A stretch of DNA of 64,000 nt from Sclerodactyla briareus (lineage: Eukaryota; Echinodermata; Holothuroidea; Dendrochirotida; Sclerodactylidae), in NCBI GenBank assembly GCA_026419785.1, contig JAODTK010004832.1, positions 372,001 to 436,000 on the forward strand, given 5' to 3'. This document shows, in pieces, positions 1-48,715 of this stretch (its first letter is position 1; the number at the start of each line of letters is the position of its first letter). A model generated the notes under the pieces. It saw nothing but the letters and a program-made list of their open reading frames with translations, did not search any database and was not told where the DNA came from. The translations under genes and the position numbers were made by a program.

Positions 1-1695
1 CTACTGAAAGGCAACTGGGTGGGAGCATCTCGATGTGGTAAAATTATTGAATCCAGCAACATGAATCACTGCTACTACTTCATTATTCCAAATGTTCTTG
101 ACAGTGTCTTAACTGCTTTGTTTGTCGGGTTGTCTTTTGGAATCCCCGGACTTAGTCGGATAGGTGTGTTATTTGTGTGTACCCCCTTAAGTGTCGTTGA
201 TACGCTTTGTGCCATCCGATTTTATCGGGTATTCTGGTTGAATGACAGCCGCCACAAGTAAATCCAGTCCGCGCATATGGGATTATGTCGTGATAACGTC
301 GTGAGAACACTGCTCCCCCACGCATTCAGAGCAAAAAGGGGTACTGCTAAAAAACTGGAAACGAATGAGAATGGCGTTTCACATAGGCGGCTGTGCTGTT
401 ATTTCAGTGTTGATCGATGAAATCGCTTGTATTGTACCGCTTGAACAACTGTAACATTTCTGTTTGTTTGTGGCACCAATAACCTTCGTCTCTTTATATG
501 GGATTGTAAAACAGATTGTAGAATAATAAATCTAAACTCCACTTGGCTAAAGTTCTGAACGAAAGAATGGTGAATTCAACGACCAGCAGGTTTTCCTTCG
601 AGTGACGTAAGCAAAAAAAATCGGGCCACCCATGTTGCGTAGGGCGTGTGCAATGCTCGTCAATTTAATTCGTATTGGCCTTGTTTGGGTGTGTTTTTCT
701 TTTCCGCCACGTCTCTATGTGATGATGTACGTTACTTTTTGTGATGGATTGAGTCATGATATGTGTAGCCCCGTTTCCGCTACAGTTGACCGTATTGTGG
801 GCAGCAGACCGCAAAACGCAGATATTAGATAACCCTTAGAACTTTCTGTAGAGTTTCAAAGTTGCAAAAGTGGCCCTTCATTATTCAAGTTACTGTAAAT
901 AAGTAATTCAATTTTTGCTAAACTTGGATATTTTCTGATTTTTGAAGTATGGTAATTATTATTTTTTTTTTGAAAATGCACGCCTTTCGATAAGTTTCTA
1001 CCATAACTAGACATGCGATGCTTTGCATTTACTTTGATCGCCCGTTTTGGTTTTGGGCCTTTGTCTATTCAAACCCCATTCTTCAAGTATTTAAAGCAAA
1101 TATTCAATTAATTAGAGGACACTGCAAGCTTTTTGATCAACAGATGTTATATCGTGTAGAATGGAAACCTGTCTATATAGGTCCTCGAAAAAACCTTTTT
1201 CAATAAACAAATAAAATAACGATGTTCCTATGTGGAGTTTTTGGTCTTCAAAGTTTGGTCCAATTTGCTGATCATTGGGGAGAATCCCAAGTGTGATTTG
1301 CGCATAACGCATCAACGCACACTTGGACAACCCAGGAAGTTATGTTATGTATTTCATTTTTTTTTTCATTTTTTTTTTTTAAAAGTCAACATTCAGGCAG
1401 AAGTTCTGTTGTCTCCTCTCACCAAGTGAACCATCAAACCCCCACCCACCACTCCAGCACTCCTCTCCCATATACTAAAATGCTTCTCGAAGTGAAAATA
1501 ATGTTTGAGATTGTTTTGCAGGGTTGTGGCAAGTATGACAATCATTTATCTTATGGCATGATGGGAATCATGGGATGCTTTCCAATCGTGCGCAATACAC
1601 ATGCACAAACTTCAGAGGATTGTAACTCCGTAACGGAAAGTCGTATGAAATTCGGGTTTGGACTGACGCATTCAGTTTTCTTCAGATAATTATAT
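1..1695. other. No recognisable gene or repeat
   Basis: Only short open frames occur here and none resembles a known protein or continues across a plausible exon. The stretch is AT-rich and contains T-runs around 961-970 and 1349-1380. It reads as intergenic or intronic DNA. Repeat family D starts at about 1696. Confidence 0.5.
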
Positions 1696-2563
1696 CAGCC
1701 TATATCCCTACTTCGGGGATATTATGGTTTAGGCAGCGTCGTCTCCGCCGCCACCGCCGGGAACTTATCGCGTAAACGCAATAACTCTCTAACACAATGT
1801 CGATTGACACAAAACTTTGCACACAGTGTTGGCATTACTGTACCACTCTGGCGACGGCCATCTTGGAATTTCAACAGAACTGAATTGAAAGGTGTTTGTA
1901 CAATAACTCCCTAGTGCCTCCTTGGATCCATATGAAACTTGCACACATGATCGTCTGATGGAAATCTTGAATGGGTCGAAAAGGTGGCGTCGCCCGACCG
2001 CTCTGACGGCGGCCATTTAAGATTTTTTCGCTAAACGGAGTTTTCCGCTCATTGCGCGTTTTGAAGCATGTCGATAATTTGAGACCAACTTTTGTTTTCG
2101 CGCCATTTTGAATTTTTGCGAAATTAATTTTTTTTCGCAGATTTGACTTTTTTAACTTTGCAAACATGATGCGTGATGAAAATTTTGAATGGTGGAACAG
2201 GTGGCGTCGCCCGACCACTCTGATAGCGGCCATCTTTTTTTGTTTTGCGAAATTGAGTTTTTCGTTTATTCGCGCATTTCGAAGCATGGCGATAACTTTG
2301 AGACCAACTTCTGTTCTCGCTCAACGACCCACAGGCCGGCCATTTTGAACTTTTGCAAAAATGTTCCTTTTTTGTTTTTTTTTTCTCACAATTTGACAGT
2401 CGCAAATTCGGAACATGGTGTGTGCATCGGGGCCAACCTCCACTTCTCTGAGTCATAAATCCCCTTCTGATAAAAAAAAACAACAAGGCGAATAATGTCA
2501 CTCTGATTGGTCGAGAGTGGGGATATACACGTTGGCGGTTTACCCGCTAGGCGATTTCTAGTT
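1696..2563 (-). mobile_element. Family D interspersed element, copy D1 (reverse)
   Basis: This is the reverse complement of the elements at 14098 and 26250. The right edge (about 2525-2563) carries the family's GGCGG / CCGCC-type terminal hairpin. The left edge carries the GGGGATAT end. In between are repeated modules built around the complement of 'AAAATGGCCGCC' and of 'AAGTTTCAAGTCAATCGG'. Open frames of up to 138 codons on the minus strand are by-products of the repeat and not genes. No transposase is present, so the copy is non-autonomous. Confidence 0.7.
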
Positions 2564-5699: not shown

Positions 5700-7086
5700 T
5701 TAATGCAGAGGGATTAGGCAGGCTAGCAGAAACGGCAGCACTATGCTATCTCCATGGAACAACTTGACCTTGTCTTTATTCGGAAACCCTAGTACTCACG
5801 GCGATGGAGCTAAATGGGCTGAATGGGGAGGAAAAATAATTTATTCGCCTGTACTTCCTCAAGTAGGGGGATTGCTGCTGTAAACCTCCGAGGCTGGAGT
5901 CGATGCTAATGTTTTAAACTTCCATTGCGATGATTGGTAGATTTATTATTGTTGATGTCCGTTGCGGTGGTATTTCTTACCCTTACTCGTATTTTACGGT
6001 CCCAACGTGACAATCCTGATTTAATCAAATATCTCCATTTCTCCGCAAGTTCCGCTGTGAATTATTATTATTGGAGGTGATTTCAATTTTGTTTTCAATC
6101 TTGACTTGACAAAAAGGGTGGTAACGTGGACTAATTTTAAGGCCAGGTCAGACTGCTTAATCGTATGGAGAAGTATGATCTGGTCGATATTTGGAGAGAT
6201 AGGACCCGTTAACCCATTATTTTACTTGAAATTTCTAACATAAGCTGGATATACACTGTAATTGGATTTTTTCATCATATCCCGCCATCTTTCGCCAAGT
6301 TACTAATTGTTTTTGATCCAACCTTTCAATCTGACCATTGCCTGGTCGTGTTATGCATCGACCTCGCTGATATTTCAAGAGGGAAGGGGTCATTGGAAAT
6401 TTCCAATTCTCTTTTAGCGGATGCACTCTATACTGATATGGTTGCACTTTGATTGTTCCTGCACGACCGACGGAACCACGGCTACTCTGATCCGGGTTCT
6501 CCTGGGAAATCGTAAATTTATGAATCCGTGCAGAAACCAGTTCGTTCAGTAAAGAGAACCACTCACATGCGATTATGAGCGTCCATCTCATTTCCCAGAT
6601 TATACTTTGGAATCTGAAACCCTTATAAAAATAATAAAACATATTTAATATTATATATTAATAGTGGCCTTACCCATTGTCGAGTGAATTGATTAATGCT
6701 CGTGATAATCTTCAGCTATTGTATAAGACGTTGGAATGAATTATTGTCCAGTTCTAAGGCACGATGGGTTGAAGATGGCGAACGTAACTATATTTTTCAA
6801 ATCTGTAGAATAGAATAAACGTTCATCTACCATTTACACTATCAAAGTGACGGTACTTTACTGCAAGACAGTAATCAATTTAGATCTGACAATCCGTTCC
6901 TTAATAGGTCTCTTCATACTGCTAATACTTGCAATTCGAATAACTATTTTGATAAGCTCCCAGCGTTACTTCAGATTTGAATTGTTCAGTTGTGAATGGG
7001 TACCTAACGGTGAATGAGTGCAAAACGCATTGTTTTCCTATTGCGATGGTAAATCGCCTGGGAGTGACAGGTTCTCTATTGATTTG
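5700..7086 (+). pseudogene. L1/Tx1-like LINE, segment 1: endonuclease and start of RT
   Basis: Three-frame reading recovers an apurinic-like endonuclease domain followed by the linker to reverse transcriptase. Visible motifs are an N-terminal 'QLDLVFIRKP' (5762) that resembles the usual 'ILLQET' block, 'RFIIVDVRCGGISY' near 5938, 'IIGGDFNF' at 6067-6090, the catalytic SDH triad at 6330-6338 inside 'FQSDHCLVVLCIDLAD', 'RWVEDGERN' at 6762-6788, and 'GKSPGSD' at 7048-7068. This domain order and wording are characteristic of L1-superfamily (Tx1-like) ORF2. Multiple frameshifts and stops make it non-functional. It is broken after 'SIDLY' by family B copy B1; the reading resumes on the other side at about 8354 with 'YKFLA'. 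The same LINE continues at 8355, 9481 and 11106. Confidence 0.85.
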
Positions 7087-10090: not shown

Positions 10091-11105
10091 TTGATTCCGT
10101 GGACGAAAGTAAGAGGAATCTATGCAGTCACTTCTGGTGGTGTGTGTGACGCTCAGCTTGTAAACCGGATAACACTTGATAAGGTCTGAGGTAGGTCAGG
10201 CTCATACTTAGTATGTGTGTTCTCATGAGGAGTACAGAACCCTCTGGTTTTGTGGTAAGGTCAGAGGTCATATGAGGTCACAGAGGCAAAAGTATGAAAA
10301 TATTGTAAACAGATAAGTCCAGAAGGTTGGTTTGATCAGGTTAAAATTTGGTGTGTTAGCTACTCGTGAGGAGTGCAGGACCCTATTGTTTTTGGTATCG
10401 TTGGGGTTGAATTTTGGTCAAAATGAAAATTGTGAAAAGTGGTTATTTTGTCTCAATTTGGCTGTAAACACGATAACATCGACCCCCACCTGGACGGATG
10501 AAGTTTCATACTTGGTATGTGTATTTCCCCATGATGAGACATGAACCCTTTGTTTTTGGGGGCAGGTCAGAGGTCATCTGAGGTCACCAGAGGTCAAAGT
10601 CTGGAAAACCTTGTAAACACGTAAGTCCAGAATGGTTGGTCTGATCCGGTTGAAATTGATGGGTAGCTGTTTATGGGGAGCAACAGGAACCCATTTTTTG
10701 GTATAGGTTGGATGTGAATTTTGGTCAAAAATAGTAAATTTGTTGAAAAGTGATATTTTGGCCAATTTTGGTCTTTTAAAAAACGATAAACTCGACCCCG
10801 CCTGGATGGCTGAAGATCATACTCGGTATGTGTGTCCCCACGATGAGTACATGACCCGATGTTTTGGGGTCAGGTCAGAGGTCATCTGAGGTCGCCACAG
10901 GTCAAAATCTCGAACGAAATTCAGTGTGTAGCTGGCTTATAAAGGTATAGGAAACACCTATGCGGTTGGGTTGGGGAAACCGGGAAATTTGTCAGTTGTT
11001 CATGTTGCCCATAAATGAGCGGGTGCTTTGGCAATCTCCCATTTGTCTGTGTATAGCTAGAGGTGTTTAGAAAGAGTCAGGAATCAAAGCGTTGGCTTTC
11101 TGGTT
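10091..11105 (+). mobile_element. Family A interspersed element, copy A2 (inside the LINE)
   Basis: The 5' end reads 'TTGATTCCgTGGAC' followed by 'GGAATCTATGCAGTCA'. Three tandem units follow. The 3' end has 'GTCAgGAATC' and 'TTGGCTTTCTGG'. The half-site array at 10564-10596 is the best preserved in the window: four AGGTCA copies separated by 1, 4 and 4 bases. Removing the element joins 'FFNSV' to 'LHREIGTNKLL', the expected LINE sequence, so the insertion is well supported. Confidence 0.85.
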
Positions 11106-17835: not shown

Positions 17836-18583
17836 CTTTTCGATTCCTTGACTCCAGCCAGGTAATCCATGCAGTCATGATAGTGTGTGTGTATGTATGT
17901 ATGTATGTATGTATGTATGTATGTACATGCTGTACATGTGTAAAGCGCCTTGAGCAGCTGTCAGCTGGATACGTGCGCTATATAAAGACTACATTATTAT
18001 TATTATTATTATTACATTATTAATTTATCATTATGACATTATTATTGTAGTTATATTATGTATTGTGGTGTGTGTACGCCGGCTTGTGAAGAGCATAACT
18101 CGACCCCACCTGGATGGATGAAGCCCCCATATTTTGGTACTTTGTGTTCCCCATAATGGATAATTATCCCTATTGTTTATAAGTTAAAATTGGTGTGACT
18201 TTCTAATGGGGAGTACAATCACCCTATTGTTTTTGGTGTAGACCAGGGGTCATTTTGGGCAACATATTGAAAAATTGTGAAAAATTGATATTTTGGGGAA
18301 TTTCAGGTCGTGAAGAACATAACTTGACCCCACAGATCGAGAGCGTCAACTTGGTATGTGAGTTTCCCATAATGAGAAACATGATCCCCATTGTTTTGGG
18401 GTCATGTTAGAGTTCATCTGAGGTTATTAGATGTCAAAGTCTGAACATCTCGTGAAGAGGATAAGTCCAAAGCGGCTTGGTCCAATCAAGTTAAATTTCG
18501 TAGAGAAGTACAAGCACCCTATTGTTTTTGGTGTAGACCAGGGGTCATTTTGGGCAACATATTGAAAAATTGTGAAAAATTTT
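17836..18583 (+). mobile_element. Family A interspersed element, copy A3 (3' truncated)
   Basis: The 5' end 'GATTCCTTGACTCCAG', then 'CATGCAGTCATGATAG' and a (GTAT)n tract at 17886-17925, is intact. A foreign LINE/SINE tail follows, then two tandem units ('GCTTGTGAAgAGCATAACTCGACCCC' near 18081 and 18304). The usual 3' hairpin is missing because the DIRS-like element begins at about 18584. Confidence 0.75.
17930..18058 (+). repeat. LINE/SINE 3' tail with (ATT)n, nested in A3
   Basis: 'TGTAAAGCGCCTTGAGCAGCT' and 'TGCGCTATATAAAG' followed by ATT repeats is the familiar 3' tail shared by CR1/L2-like LINEs and their SINE partners: a GCGC stem-loop, then a microsatellite. No body of the element remains. 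Confidence 0.6.
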
Positions 18584-18677
18584 AAATTTATTGCGCTGGA
18601 CTGCAATTACCTGTTTACACTAACTGTGCAGTATGCACTACAGCTAGCTAGATCTGGCATTATTGTCTGGCCTGAAG
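18584..18677 (+). repeat. DIRS-like left inverted terminal repeat
   Basis: Its inner half pairs with 19456-19500. Its outer half ('TTATTGCGCTGGACTGCAAT') pairs with 18962-19008 of the internal block. Confidence 0.7.
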
Positions 18678-18946
18678 CTTTTTGGTAAAGTTATTTTCAA
18701 TCTGAAAAATGTTGTACACTCTGAGATAGTGTTGTTGATTCATTTTTCGCTGGAGCCGATCGGCCATGAATTGTGGGCCTGGTTCGCTAGCATAGCATTA
18801 GAAGAGATCATGAAGGCAGCAGCGTGGAAGACCCCATTGTCTTTTGTATCTCACTCCTTGACGGACACCCTGTCAGCAGAGGAAGCTTTCGCCAGGGCGG
18901 TTCTTCACCGTCCTCAACAACGAGTTCCGGACCACCCTCAATCTTA
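18678..18946 (+). pseudogene. DIRS-like tyrosine recombinase C-terminus (dead)
   Basis: The open frame reads 'IGHELWAWFASIAL', then 'EEIMKAAAWKTPLSFVSHSL' and 'TDTLSAEEAFARAVL'. In tyrosine recombinases of DIRS-type elements this block carries a HxxR motif and, after 'AAxWKxxxxF', the nucleophilic tyrosine in a (H/F)YL context. Here the Arg position is Trp (codon at 18774) and the Tyr position is Ser (codon at 18855), and a few residues between the two motifs appear deleted. The protein would be catalytically dead. Only about the last 90 residues remain of a domain usually around 250 or more. Family assignment is from motif pattern only. Confidence 0.6.
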
Positions 18947-18954
18947 GCTTGTGT

Positions 18955-19070
18955 CACGTCTGCACAGGTTAGTGGTAAAAGGTAAGTGCAGTCAGCGCAA
19001 TAAATTGCCCCAAACCCCCGTTATGGCAATTTATAAGCGATGCACTTACCTCTACCACGGCCCACCCACC
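18955..19070 (+). repeat. DIRS-like internal complementary region
   Basis: 'GGTTAGTGGTAAAAGGTAAG' through 'CGCAATAAAT' is complementary to the left terminus. 'GGCAATTTATAAGCG' through 'CACTTACCTCTACCAC' is complementary to the right terminus (19513-19548). The two halves also pair with each other as an imperfect hairpin around a C-rich loop. In DIRS elements this region is thought to template joining of the termini during circle formation. Confidence 0.7.
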
Positions 19071-19455
19071 TCCCCAAGTCGGAACACGTTGGGGCGTCTA
19101 CAAGCCTGGAGTCGCAGGGAGCTTGCAACCTCAGTGGGACCGTTTCAGGTCATGGGGGTCGGACTCATACTCTCTCGACTGACGAGGCCCGACCATTGGC
19201 CTACATGACTATGTTTTGAAGACGATTGGAGTCTCTCGTTCAGGGTCAGTATAGTGGTTTCAGCCAAAGGTGGACACGATCTCAGTGGTCAGGAACCAGA
19301 AGGAGCTACATTTCGGGTGAGATCGAACTCATTTACTTGTCCAGCTCTCTCACCTCGCTCCACAGAGCTTCTTCTCCCTACAGTTCCGCTCCTATCCTCT
19401 AATCCGCTGAGCTCCGTTTCGTCAGCCAAAATTTTGGAATGGCGGAGGTGCCCAC

Positions 19456-19548
19456 CTTCAGGCCAGACAATTATGCCAGATCTAGCTAGCTGGTAGGTGG
19501 CTACTGGCAACAGGTTAGTGGTAAAAGGTAAGTGCATCGCCTATAAAC
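19456..19548 (+). repeat. DIRS-like right inverted terminal repeat
   Basis: Reverse complement of the left repeat over 'CTTCAGGCCAGAC' and 'AGATCTAGCTAGCTG'. The outer end 'AAAAGGTAAGTGCATCGC' matches the internal block rather than the left end exactly. Family B wording begins directly after it. Confidence 0.7.
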
Positions 19549-31165: not shown

Positions 31166-34100
31166 ACGTCGCAGCCGTATTGAAGGAAAGGAAAATGTTG
31201 AAACACATGAAATTGAAGGCGGCCAATGAGAAGCGGCCAATGAGAAGCCGGCCAATGAGAAGCCGGCCAATGAGAAGCCGGCCAATGAGAAGCCGAATGT
31301 TGTAGATGCAGAGGTCAGTCACCTCAGTACTAGCAAAAATGACGTGGAAGACACTTCTTCTAAATACGTGGACTCCGATCCCATCGTCGGGCCTCGGCAA
31401 CTGCCACCCTCTGAGACAAAAGATGGGGGCGAACAGGTTTCTGCAGATATGTTATAAATAGAGATAGCTGTGACAGCGACATTCACAATGGCAGCAATTG
31501 CCCGACCCTCACCTCGACGGCAGTGCCGGTGAAGTAATTTACAACTACAAGTCACCGTGCAATGATCCTGGCTGTCATTGTTCCCCTGGAAAGGTCTATT
31601 CACACTCACCCAAACTTGAGGAATATTGTCACTGCCTCTCTTGTCAGCAGATCCCCCGAGTGATGCCACACAGTCACGTGCCCTACTACCATCCATCTGC
31701 TATGCACATTCCTCAGGGCGCTGTACATTTTCGTCGCCCTACAGCCGGCGTATTTATACAACCAGAAACGAGCATTGGTCATCATCACCCTGTCTATCAC
31801 TCTCCGACGTTCAACCATCACAACACCAACGACTGGGCAAAGTATGCAGTGCAAGGTTTCAGCCATAACACTCACAACTTACTACACCCAAGCGCACACC
31901 AGTTTTGGAGAGCACCTGCTCCTACACGGTTTGAACCATCGACGAGTGCAGCATCTCAATGCACTCCGAGTCCGAAGCTTTTGCTGCCTTTGTCCAGATC
32001 CACTATTGTTTCATTGGTGAAAGATGGCAAGTGTGACATTATTCTAGAGTCTTTGGATCGACCCCTGCATGATGAATCCAGTCCTTTATACCCGCTCGCA
32101 CTCAAAACCGTTTTGGAGATACTAGATGTGATTCAAAATGATTTTACACAGGCCTATCAGACTGACGAGAGGGTGGAAGCAGATATTCACCACTTGTCAG
32201 ACTTTGTGAAAAACATGGAAAAGGCTACACTCGGACTTGATGATTCCCGTTTCAACTCTTCGGAACAACAGAGGGTTTCAGCCCACCAATCAGGTTCTGT
32301 CGATGCTACTGTCGGTTCCCATAAAAGTGTTAACAGAAGACAGGAAACTAAGCATCAGAAAGATGAAGCCGAATCGACTCATGCTAACGTAATAGACCCG
32401 TTTCCGTCCAAGGAAAGACATGCTGATAGTAACAATGATGAAAAGATGAAACATCTTCTAAGGAAACCCATTCCAGATTCCATTGTTATTGGTGATGACA
32501 TTGCCAATATACTCGCTCAATTCAAAGCCCAAAGCAAATCGACCGAAACCAAGGCAACTCAGTCTGTTGATGAAATAAAGGTGGGCAACAAAATAGATGA
32601 AGGGGAATGTTCAGTTGTCTTACCTGAGGACGAAAAAACCAGTGTTGCAGAAAACATGGGTGCCACTTCGAGCAACGATGCAATTCCCGACGAAAAAGCA
32701 GATGAGGAAATGATAACGAATCGGAAACAGCTGCTTTGAAGAACTCAAATACAACAGTTTCCAAAGAGGGTAGTGTAGGAAAGACAAACCCATCGTCCGT
32801 TGATAAAGCACCTCCCATTGTTGCTCCCGATCAAACAGACAAACTGATGAAAGATCCATCCGACATCGATGTAGTCGATGAACTTTTGGACCAGAAACTG
32901 TTAGATTGTGTAAAACAAGGGAATCCAAACGGCCAGTGACAAGTGCCTGTGACGAGCCTTCTGCAAGTTACAGAGGCAAAGGCTTTAAAGTGAGGTCAGT
33001 TGGAGGAACGGACAAGCCTCAGGTCAAGCCAAGAATACCTGTCAAAACGTTTTCCCAACCTCACTGATGATCAAAAGAAGGATTCCGCTAAGCCCCCGAA
33101 TCCAACACATCCGAATCTCCATGCGGGAGGAAGTGGCAAGAAAACGACGGATGTTAATGATAACTCGCTGCAGGTACTTTCTTGAACCATGAAATGTGAA
33201 TACATACCTTAAGGGAGAGCTTAAAGAAGCTACCCCGGACCCCCTAGAGGCCGATAAATCCACTCTCTCCTCACCTTCGGAGAGTTTGGACAGCACAGAC
33301 TTCAAATCTATGTTACTGAAGAAGAAAGCTGGAATTTATTTAATGAACGATTGATCACCCTAAAGCAGCAGTAGGACCTGATAATGTTATAGAACCAGGT
33401 CTCACAAGTTCATCACATTCAGCCAAACAGAAGCTGAGCCGAGAAAACAGAATATCGAGAAAGACGCGTCCCGAGAATGTACTCCGCCGAGTACTCTTAC
33501 AAAGCCACTGATGTCGAAAACATTTCATGGAAAACTCTTGTTGCAAAAGCATTCCAAAGACGAAGCCTGCCCTATTCCATTGGAAGTGGTTGATTCTGCA
33601 TTTGCACCACGAGATCCACGGCTGGCTTTGTCAAATCTAATGGAACCTCGAGTGAACCACGACTTAAAAGCCTCCAATGGAGAGGCGGTTGTAGCATTCA
33701 GAAAAACTTGTCTGAAGGGCACGACAAGTTCATCGTTAACACCCCTAAATATGCGAGACCCCAGGGTAAGAACGCCTCTCGGGAGATAATGTGAACCCAA
33801 TGTGCAGTGTCCAAATGTAGTTCCTTCCGCAGAGCAGTGTTGACAAGCTCGCACTGAAATGTCGCAAAGAGATGTGCACACCAAGACAGCCGTTGTCGAG
33901 GGAGACAATGGTGCTACTCAGAGGTCTCTCAACGTATCAATCAGCTGCCGATCTGATTCTGCAATGCAGCCAGTCGTTGGTCTTGAAGGACACGCCAAAA
34001 GTGGTCATCCGACTGTGGGGACCACTAAAGAAATGCCAACTGAGGTATTGAAGTGTTAAGAACCCCCATAAATTGGTGTCACACACGGTTCCATGTCAAG

Positions 34101-47448: not shown

Positions 47449-48715
47449 TTTTGATTCCTTGACGAAGTCGGAGGATCTATGCAGTCGTGCCAGTGTGTGT
47501 GTATGTGTGTGTGTGTGTGTGTGTGTGTATGTTGTGTGACGCTGGCTTGTGAACACGATAACTCGACCCCACCTGGATGGATGAAGCTCATACTTGGCAT
47601 GTGTGTTCCCCATGATGAGTACATAACCCTACGGTTTGGGGTCAGGTCAGAGGTCATCTGAGGTCAACCAGAGGTCAAAGTCCCTGAAACCTTGTGACAA
47701 CGATAAGTCCAGAATGGTTGGTCTTATCGGGTTCAATTTTGGTGTGTAGGCTTTCTTATGGTGATACAGGAACCCTATGGTTTTTTGTATAGGTCGGAAT
47801 ATGTCCGGGGTGATTTTTGGTCAAAAATAGAAACTTGTGGAAAGTCATAATTTGACCAATTTTTGCTGTATGACCACGATAACTCGACCCCACCGGGATG
47901 GATGAGCCTCATACTTGGTGTGTGTGTGTTACCCTGATGAGTACCTAACCCTATTGTTTTGGGGTCAGGTCAGTGGTGATTTGAGGTCACCAGAGGCAAA
48001 GGTCTGAAAACCTTGTGAACACGGTCAAAGTATCAGAATGGTTGGTCTGATCGGGTCAAATTTTGGTGTGTAGCTTTATTTATTATGGGGATTACAGGAA
48101 CCCTGTTTGTTTTTGTATTGGTCATGGGTGAATTTTGGTCAAAAATAGAGAATTTGTGAAAAGTCAATAATTTGGCCAATTTTGGCTTGTGAACACGATA
48201 ACTCACCCCACCTGATGATTAAGCTCAACTTGGCATGTAGTTGTTTTCCCCATGATGAGTCATAACACCTCATTGTTTTGGGGTCAGGTCGAGGTCATCG
48301 AGGTCTAGCGGTCCAAGTCGGAAAACCTTGTGAACACGATAAGTCGAGAAAGTTTGGTCTATCGGGTCCAAATTTTGGTGTGTCGCTTTCTTATGGGACT
48401 ACAGAATACTGGAACCCTATTTCTTTTGGTATAGGTTCGAGTGAATTTTGGTCAAAAATATCACATATTTGTGAAAAGTCAATAATTTGGCCATTTTGGT
48501 TGTGACCACGATACCTCGACCCACCTTGGATGGATGAAGTTCATACTTGTGTGTGTGTCCCCCTGATAGTACATAAACCCTCTTTTTTGGGGTCAGGTCA
48601 GAGGTCATACAAGGTCATCCAACTGTTACAATCTCCCATTTGTCCTTGTGTCTTGCTATAGTTGTCAGGAGAGTCAAGGAATCACTAAGCCTTTTGGCTT
48701 TTCTGGTTTTCTATA
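47449..48715 (+). mobile_element. Family A interspersed element, copy A8 (complete, longest)
   Basis: GATTCCTTGAC at 47453-47463, 'GAAGTCGGAGGATCTATGCAGTCgTG', and (TG)n at 47494-47537. Four tandem units start near 47545, 47872, 48190 and 48500 (period 310-327). 3' GTCAAGGAATC at 48673-48683 and hairpin AAGCCTTTTGGCTT at 48687-48700. The half-site cluster at 47644-47677 has four AGGTCA copies. This is the best copy for defining the family. Confidence 0.9.

Follow-up and report, generated by a model that had tools for sequence, protein, structure and literature searches.

A short DIRS1-like element in Sclerodactyla briareus is probably a decayed, internally deleted retrotransposon copy

What is the short element with inverted ends that lies in a 64,000-nucleotide stretch of the Sclerodactyla briareus genome (the whole stretch is called the window here)? 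A preliminary description, made from the letters of the window, had taken it for an internally deleted DIRS-like copy that kept its termini and the sequences needed in cis for circularisation, and that might be a MITE-like derivative of a tyrosine-recombinase retroelement. Our analysis makes it highly probable that the window copy is a dead, internally deleted and right-end-truncated DIRS1-like tyrosine-recombinase retrotransposon. It appears to be an ordinary decayed relic rather than a new mobile family.

The element spans approximately 18586-19547 (0.96 kb), a small correction to the 18584-19548 first given. Its inverted terminal repeats (ITRs) are complementary between 18602-18677 and 19456-19536 (84% over 81 columns), and their innermost 37 bases (18641-18677 and 19456-19492) are 97% complementary. 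The internal complementary region (ICR) has a left half complementary to 18585-18631 (88%, 48 columns) and a right half complementary to 19518-19547 (90%, 30 columns). These three pairs scored 75.2, 53.6 and 38.3 bits, respectively, against a maximum of 34.6 bits in 200 dinucleotide-preserving shuffles. The inverted ends and the ICR pairing in this span are real and beyond chance, and on both points the preliminary description was right. The features are collected in Table 1.

Table 1. Features of the window copy (positions are those of the window; L031 and the like are relatives in the same genome)
Feature	Position	Strand	Remarks
Left terminus, outer part of left ITR, begins ATT	18586..18677	+	matches L031 positions 1-91
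Left-interior piece, fused to ITR with loss of about 120 bp, AAG at joint	18675..18749	+	89% to L031 1189-1264
16-bp piece from further inside the element	18751..18766	+	identical to L031 2833-2848; weak alone (E 0.006-0.008)
C-terminal tail of recombinase-like ORF, including stop; upstream part absent	18776..18947	+	81 bp 95% identical to L041 DNA; tblastn to relatives
Left ICR half	18960..19006	.	complementary to left terminus
Inner ICR stretch, unpaired in window copy	19007..19029	.	in relatives complementary to right extension (read from sequences)
Right ICR half	19030..19058	.	complementary to right terminus
ICR-to-right-ITR stretch, also in long relatives	19059..19455	+	inside alignments: 82% to L031, 89% to L032
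Right terminus = right ITR; stops short of right extension, then host repeat	19456..19547	+	

Relatives of the element were sought in the 319-Mb assembly (3171 contigs). The whole-element query gave at least 90 matches genome-wide (40 of 208 candidates scored). Among those scored, the best 11 after the window itself started at query positions 193-326 and ended at 957-964, so that they begin inside the recombinase-like tail or soon after it starts. Four long relatives with both ends were measured: L031 (7097 bp), L032 (6249 bp), L046 (7450 bp) and L047 (7201 bp). In termini, ICR and recombinase-like tail they agree with the window copy. Their interiors can be aligned to one another, more fully in some cases than in others, and their frames are broken where read. 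The pieces of the window copy are collinear with L031 and L032; on the 7097-bp L031 element they fall at 1-91, 212-287, 1856-1871 and 6317-7071. The proposal of an internally deleted DIRS-like copy is thereby borne out, as the window copy is collinear with these two long relatives and most of its middle is gone. Repeated structures were seen at three other loci. L050 (C330:403500-412500) has two DIRS 3' ends, separated by about 5.3 kb and identical in their match statistics, probably a tandem or segmental duplication, and L044 (C183:5500-14500) and L045 (C458:1-9000) each hold parts of the DIRS interior twice in succession within one element.

The coding content of the window copy is slight. 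The recombinase-like open frame in front of the ICR, also noticed in the preliminary description, ends in frame at 18947, and approximately its last 60 codons resemble the tails of relatives, the long ones included. At the protein level this tail is common to many copies (tblastn). At the tail position some relatives have H-x-L/V-R followed by S-H-Y or S-R-Y, with the two in the same frame only in L021; we take these to be the tyrosine-recombinase motif. The window copy has no first motif, and its second motif is without the tyrosine. Pfam gave no meaningful recombinase match for the window tail. The window copy is without gag, reverse transcriptase (RT) and most of the recombinase; it encodes no complete protein and is probably immobile now.

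An RT was looked for in the relatives. Pfam scans of the nearer copies (pieces or frames of L024, L031, L032, L047, L049, L050, L053, L054 and L055) gave no RT or recombinase match, and the same was true near the C405 and C1951 tails and in the RT-like ORFs of C405. RNase H and methyltransferase did not appear in the Pfam scans of the copies, which were not aimed at them. A more distant member, L061, matched RVT_1 (E 1e-4) at 22.5 bits, below the Pfam gathering score of 29.6. Compared with solved RTs, L061 gave weak matches to retroviral and Ty3 RTs, with a best E of 0.086 among the 60 listed of 161 at E up to 1. A piece of L054 is similar to L061 (E 4e-10), and the L054 locus also contains a tail together with some of the ICR. 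When two pieces of L054 were compared with the Protein Data Bank, no RT was found. At C405 (E 5e-4) and, weakly, at C1951 (E 0.15), tail-like matches follow some 2.3 kb downstream of RT-like stretches. By these similarities an RT appears traceable in more distant members of the element's relatives. A search for the full element, as the preliminary description had suggested, found the termini, ICR and tail in the long relatives, and traces of an RT only in the more distant members.

The right end of the window copy is incomplete, as judged by comparison with the relatives and not visible from the window alone. A right extension, approximately 26 bases past the point where the window copy stops, was recognisable in all 22 other right ends printed, degenerate in some of them (for example in L038 and in one of the two right ends of L050). 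In the window copy it is absent, and a host repeat begins where it would stand. In the relatives, most left ends begin with ATT or a near form, which is also found at many right ends, and AAT stands at the matching place in the ICR; the window copy has ATT at its left end, and its right-end trinucleotide is missing. The extension, right or left and matched only by the ICR, that characterises DIRS1-like elements is found on the right in the relatives and not in the truncated window copy. The termini are therefore only partly kept: most of both ITRs is present, and the right extension with its trinucleotide is not. Because these two are missing, the proposal that the sequences required in cis were kept is not supported: at its right end the window copy falls short of what circularisation requires in the published model.

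Target-site duplications were sought in the flanks of nine copies. In eight of these, including the window copy (whose right side is truncated and uninformative), the flanks were no more alike than mispaired ones, with similarity scores of at most 7 against a mean of 5.9 and a maximum of 9 for 72 mispairings. The C2965 copy scored 17 and is the sole one of the nine with a 22-bp imperfect direct repeat in its flanks. The 384-bp C2506 copy (L057, C2506:93850-94310) sits within a repeat related to the one flanking the window element (window 18212-18300). When its flanks are joined, they give the homologous repeat with a single ATT, no duplication and one extra base at the joint. C2506 is an example, among the relatives of the window element, of the expected recombinase-type insertion. 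No duplication, as anticipated for a DIRS element, was seen at C2506 or in the eight copies, the uninformative window copy among them; C2965 is the exception. Set against a related repeat copy, the sequence to the left of the window element has a few additional bases, and no empty site for the window insertion was found in the window or in the loci compared.

The surroundings contain further repeats. A unit of 308-321 bp forms tandem arrays at window 10202-10910 and 47543-48608 and is also dispersed through the window; a related form flanks the DIRS copy. A 15-bp tandem repeat (5.5 copies, 97% matches) at 31215-31295 lies shortly before a long open frame at 31474-32739 (421 codons), and a second open frame follows at 33385-33789 (134 codons). 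Pfam returned no match at E up to 0.01 for either frame, and they are perhaps exons of a host gene. At window 1606-1700, 95 bp share 83% identity with a portion of the C2845 locus (L054) close to a DIRS copy, perhaps a common host repeat.

Other short copies exist. Besides the window copy, an incomplete census found eight copies under 2 kb with both ends: C1947 (191 bp), C385 (217 bp), C3091 (223 bp; L058, C3091:255150-255460), C2527 (250 bp), C2965 (283 bp), C1878 (362 bp), C2506 (384 bp) and C2967 (about 1.8 kb, read at its ends only). In all seven that were aligned the breakpoints differ and the ICR is absent. C2965 (L033, 136000-137800) consists of little beyond the two ITRs and forms a long hairpin (z -14.8); its joint was spanned by C2965 alone (40 of 163 candidates scored). 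A search with the C3091 joint (18 of 18 candidates scored) found only C2285 spanning the region, at 73% and with a joint that is near but different. The C2285 copy (L062, C2285:105760-106130) has lost its outer left end, and another small deletion in a C2285-like form could have given rise to C3091, so that one short form would stand at two sites. Lacking the ICR, the seven aligned copies should be unable to circularise by the published route, and deletion after integration is therefore the simplest reading. With their different breakpoints, independent decay would be the simplest explanation of the short copies.

The MITE-like derivative suggested for the window copy would be a short nonautonomous form with termini and ICR, mobilised in trans by full elements. 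In its favour, both halves of the ICR and the larger part of each ITR are present in the window copy, there are further short copies that have both ends, and C2285 and C3091, with their near joints, may represent one short form at two sites. Such a form should recur, and a query with the junction region gave 17 matches in the genome (17 of 17 candidates scored; the search tool skips very common words) in which the window copy alone spans the joints: 15 of the others contain the left-interior piece only and one the tail only. The missing right extension and right-end trinucleotide, together with the differing joints and absent ICR of the seven aligned short copies, also speak against mobilisation in trans. 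We found no second copy with the joints of the window copy and consider this reading highly improbable. Our literature search returned no work on nonautonomous DIRS elements. Even less credible to us is an ordinary DNA-transposon MITE or a foldback element with long inverted repeats, as could be imagined from the inverted repeats themselves and from the hairpin and flanking direct repeat of C2965. The ICR is complementary to both ends, long relatives share the architecture, an RT appears in relatives, a flank repeat is absent in eight of nine copies, and C2506 shows no duplication. With the architecture and most flanks against it, a DNA transposon was rejected.

The short copies could also have arisen by a process specific to the element, such as an RT jumping across the base-paired ITR panhandle, and have integrated already short. 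That aligned short copies retain both ends, that C2965 has lost nearly everything between the inner edges of its ITRs and that C2506 is a precise insertion despite its shortness are consistent with this origin. However, the other breakpoints are asymmetric, the precise ends of C2506 are equally expected if deletion followed insertion, the window copy requires several separate deletions, and the sample is biased by the demand for both ends. We regard this origin as unlikely. A more specific proposal, that RT skipping across the panhandle recurrently yields short DIRS derivatives which the recombinase can integrate, with the window copy as an ICR-keeping variant, seems to us very unlikely. If it were true, the copies of 190-380 bp that carry both ends, among them one clean ATT insertion, would represent a foldback form of DIRS not recognised before.

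Decay of a DIRS1-like retrotransposon remains the preferred reading. Following the published model, a long ancestor (the four measured relatives have 6.2-7.5 kb) would have passed through an RNA copy and been circularised with the help of the ICR. Its own recombinase would then have inserted it at a trinucleotide of the ATT type, leaving no target-site duplication; of these steps, the relatives show only an ATT insertion without duplication, at C2506. The interior was probably lost in three deletions. The pieces now follow each other as ITR, left interior (AAG shared, about 120 bp lost), probably the 16-bp piece, and the recombinase-like tail; one joint has a 3-base match, and the middle step would rest on the 16-bp match. 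The right extension was lost as well, perhaps along with neighbouring host DNA. We infer the order of the deletions and whether any of them preceded integration. Against the DIRS reading stand the Pfam results for the nearer copies, for the C405 RT-like ORFs and near the C405 and C1951 tails, the RVT_1 match of L061 below the gathering score, and the C2965 flank repeat, which is unexpected for DIRS and occurs in one of nine copies. The window copy is mainly a clear example of how a DIRS1-like element decays, and the series of short copies would, given related genomes, provide a small data set on whether the middle of DIRS elements is lost before or after integration.

MITEs and foldback elements are short, internally deleted and nonautonomous, and keep most of both inverted ends. 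The window copy is likewise short and has most of both inverted ends, but no amplification of its structure was found, and the seven aligned short copies differ in their breakpoints. DIRS1-like elements, in the published account (PMC3266345), have ITRs, an ICR whose two halves overlap by a 3-bp junction, and, matched only by the ICR, a right extension of 9-75 bp; element lengths in its table are 3.8-6.3 kb. Compared with that account (PMC3266345), the window copy differs in its length of 0.96 kb, with 6.2-7.5 kb in its long relatives, and in being without gag, RT, most of the recombinase and the right extension. The right extension of the Sclerodactyla relatives, at approximately 26 bp, stands beside the published 9-75 bp, and most copies tested here are likewise without target-site duplication (PMC3266345). 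Shared with the DIRS1-like elements described there (PMC3266345) are the ITRs, the two ICR halves, the recombinase-like ORF before the ICR, and ATT ends (in the window copy the left one only) with AAT in the ICR, a 3-bp circular junction as in SkoDIRS1 and several others.
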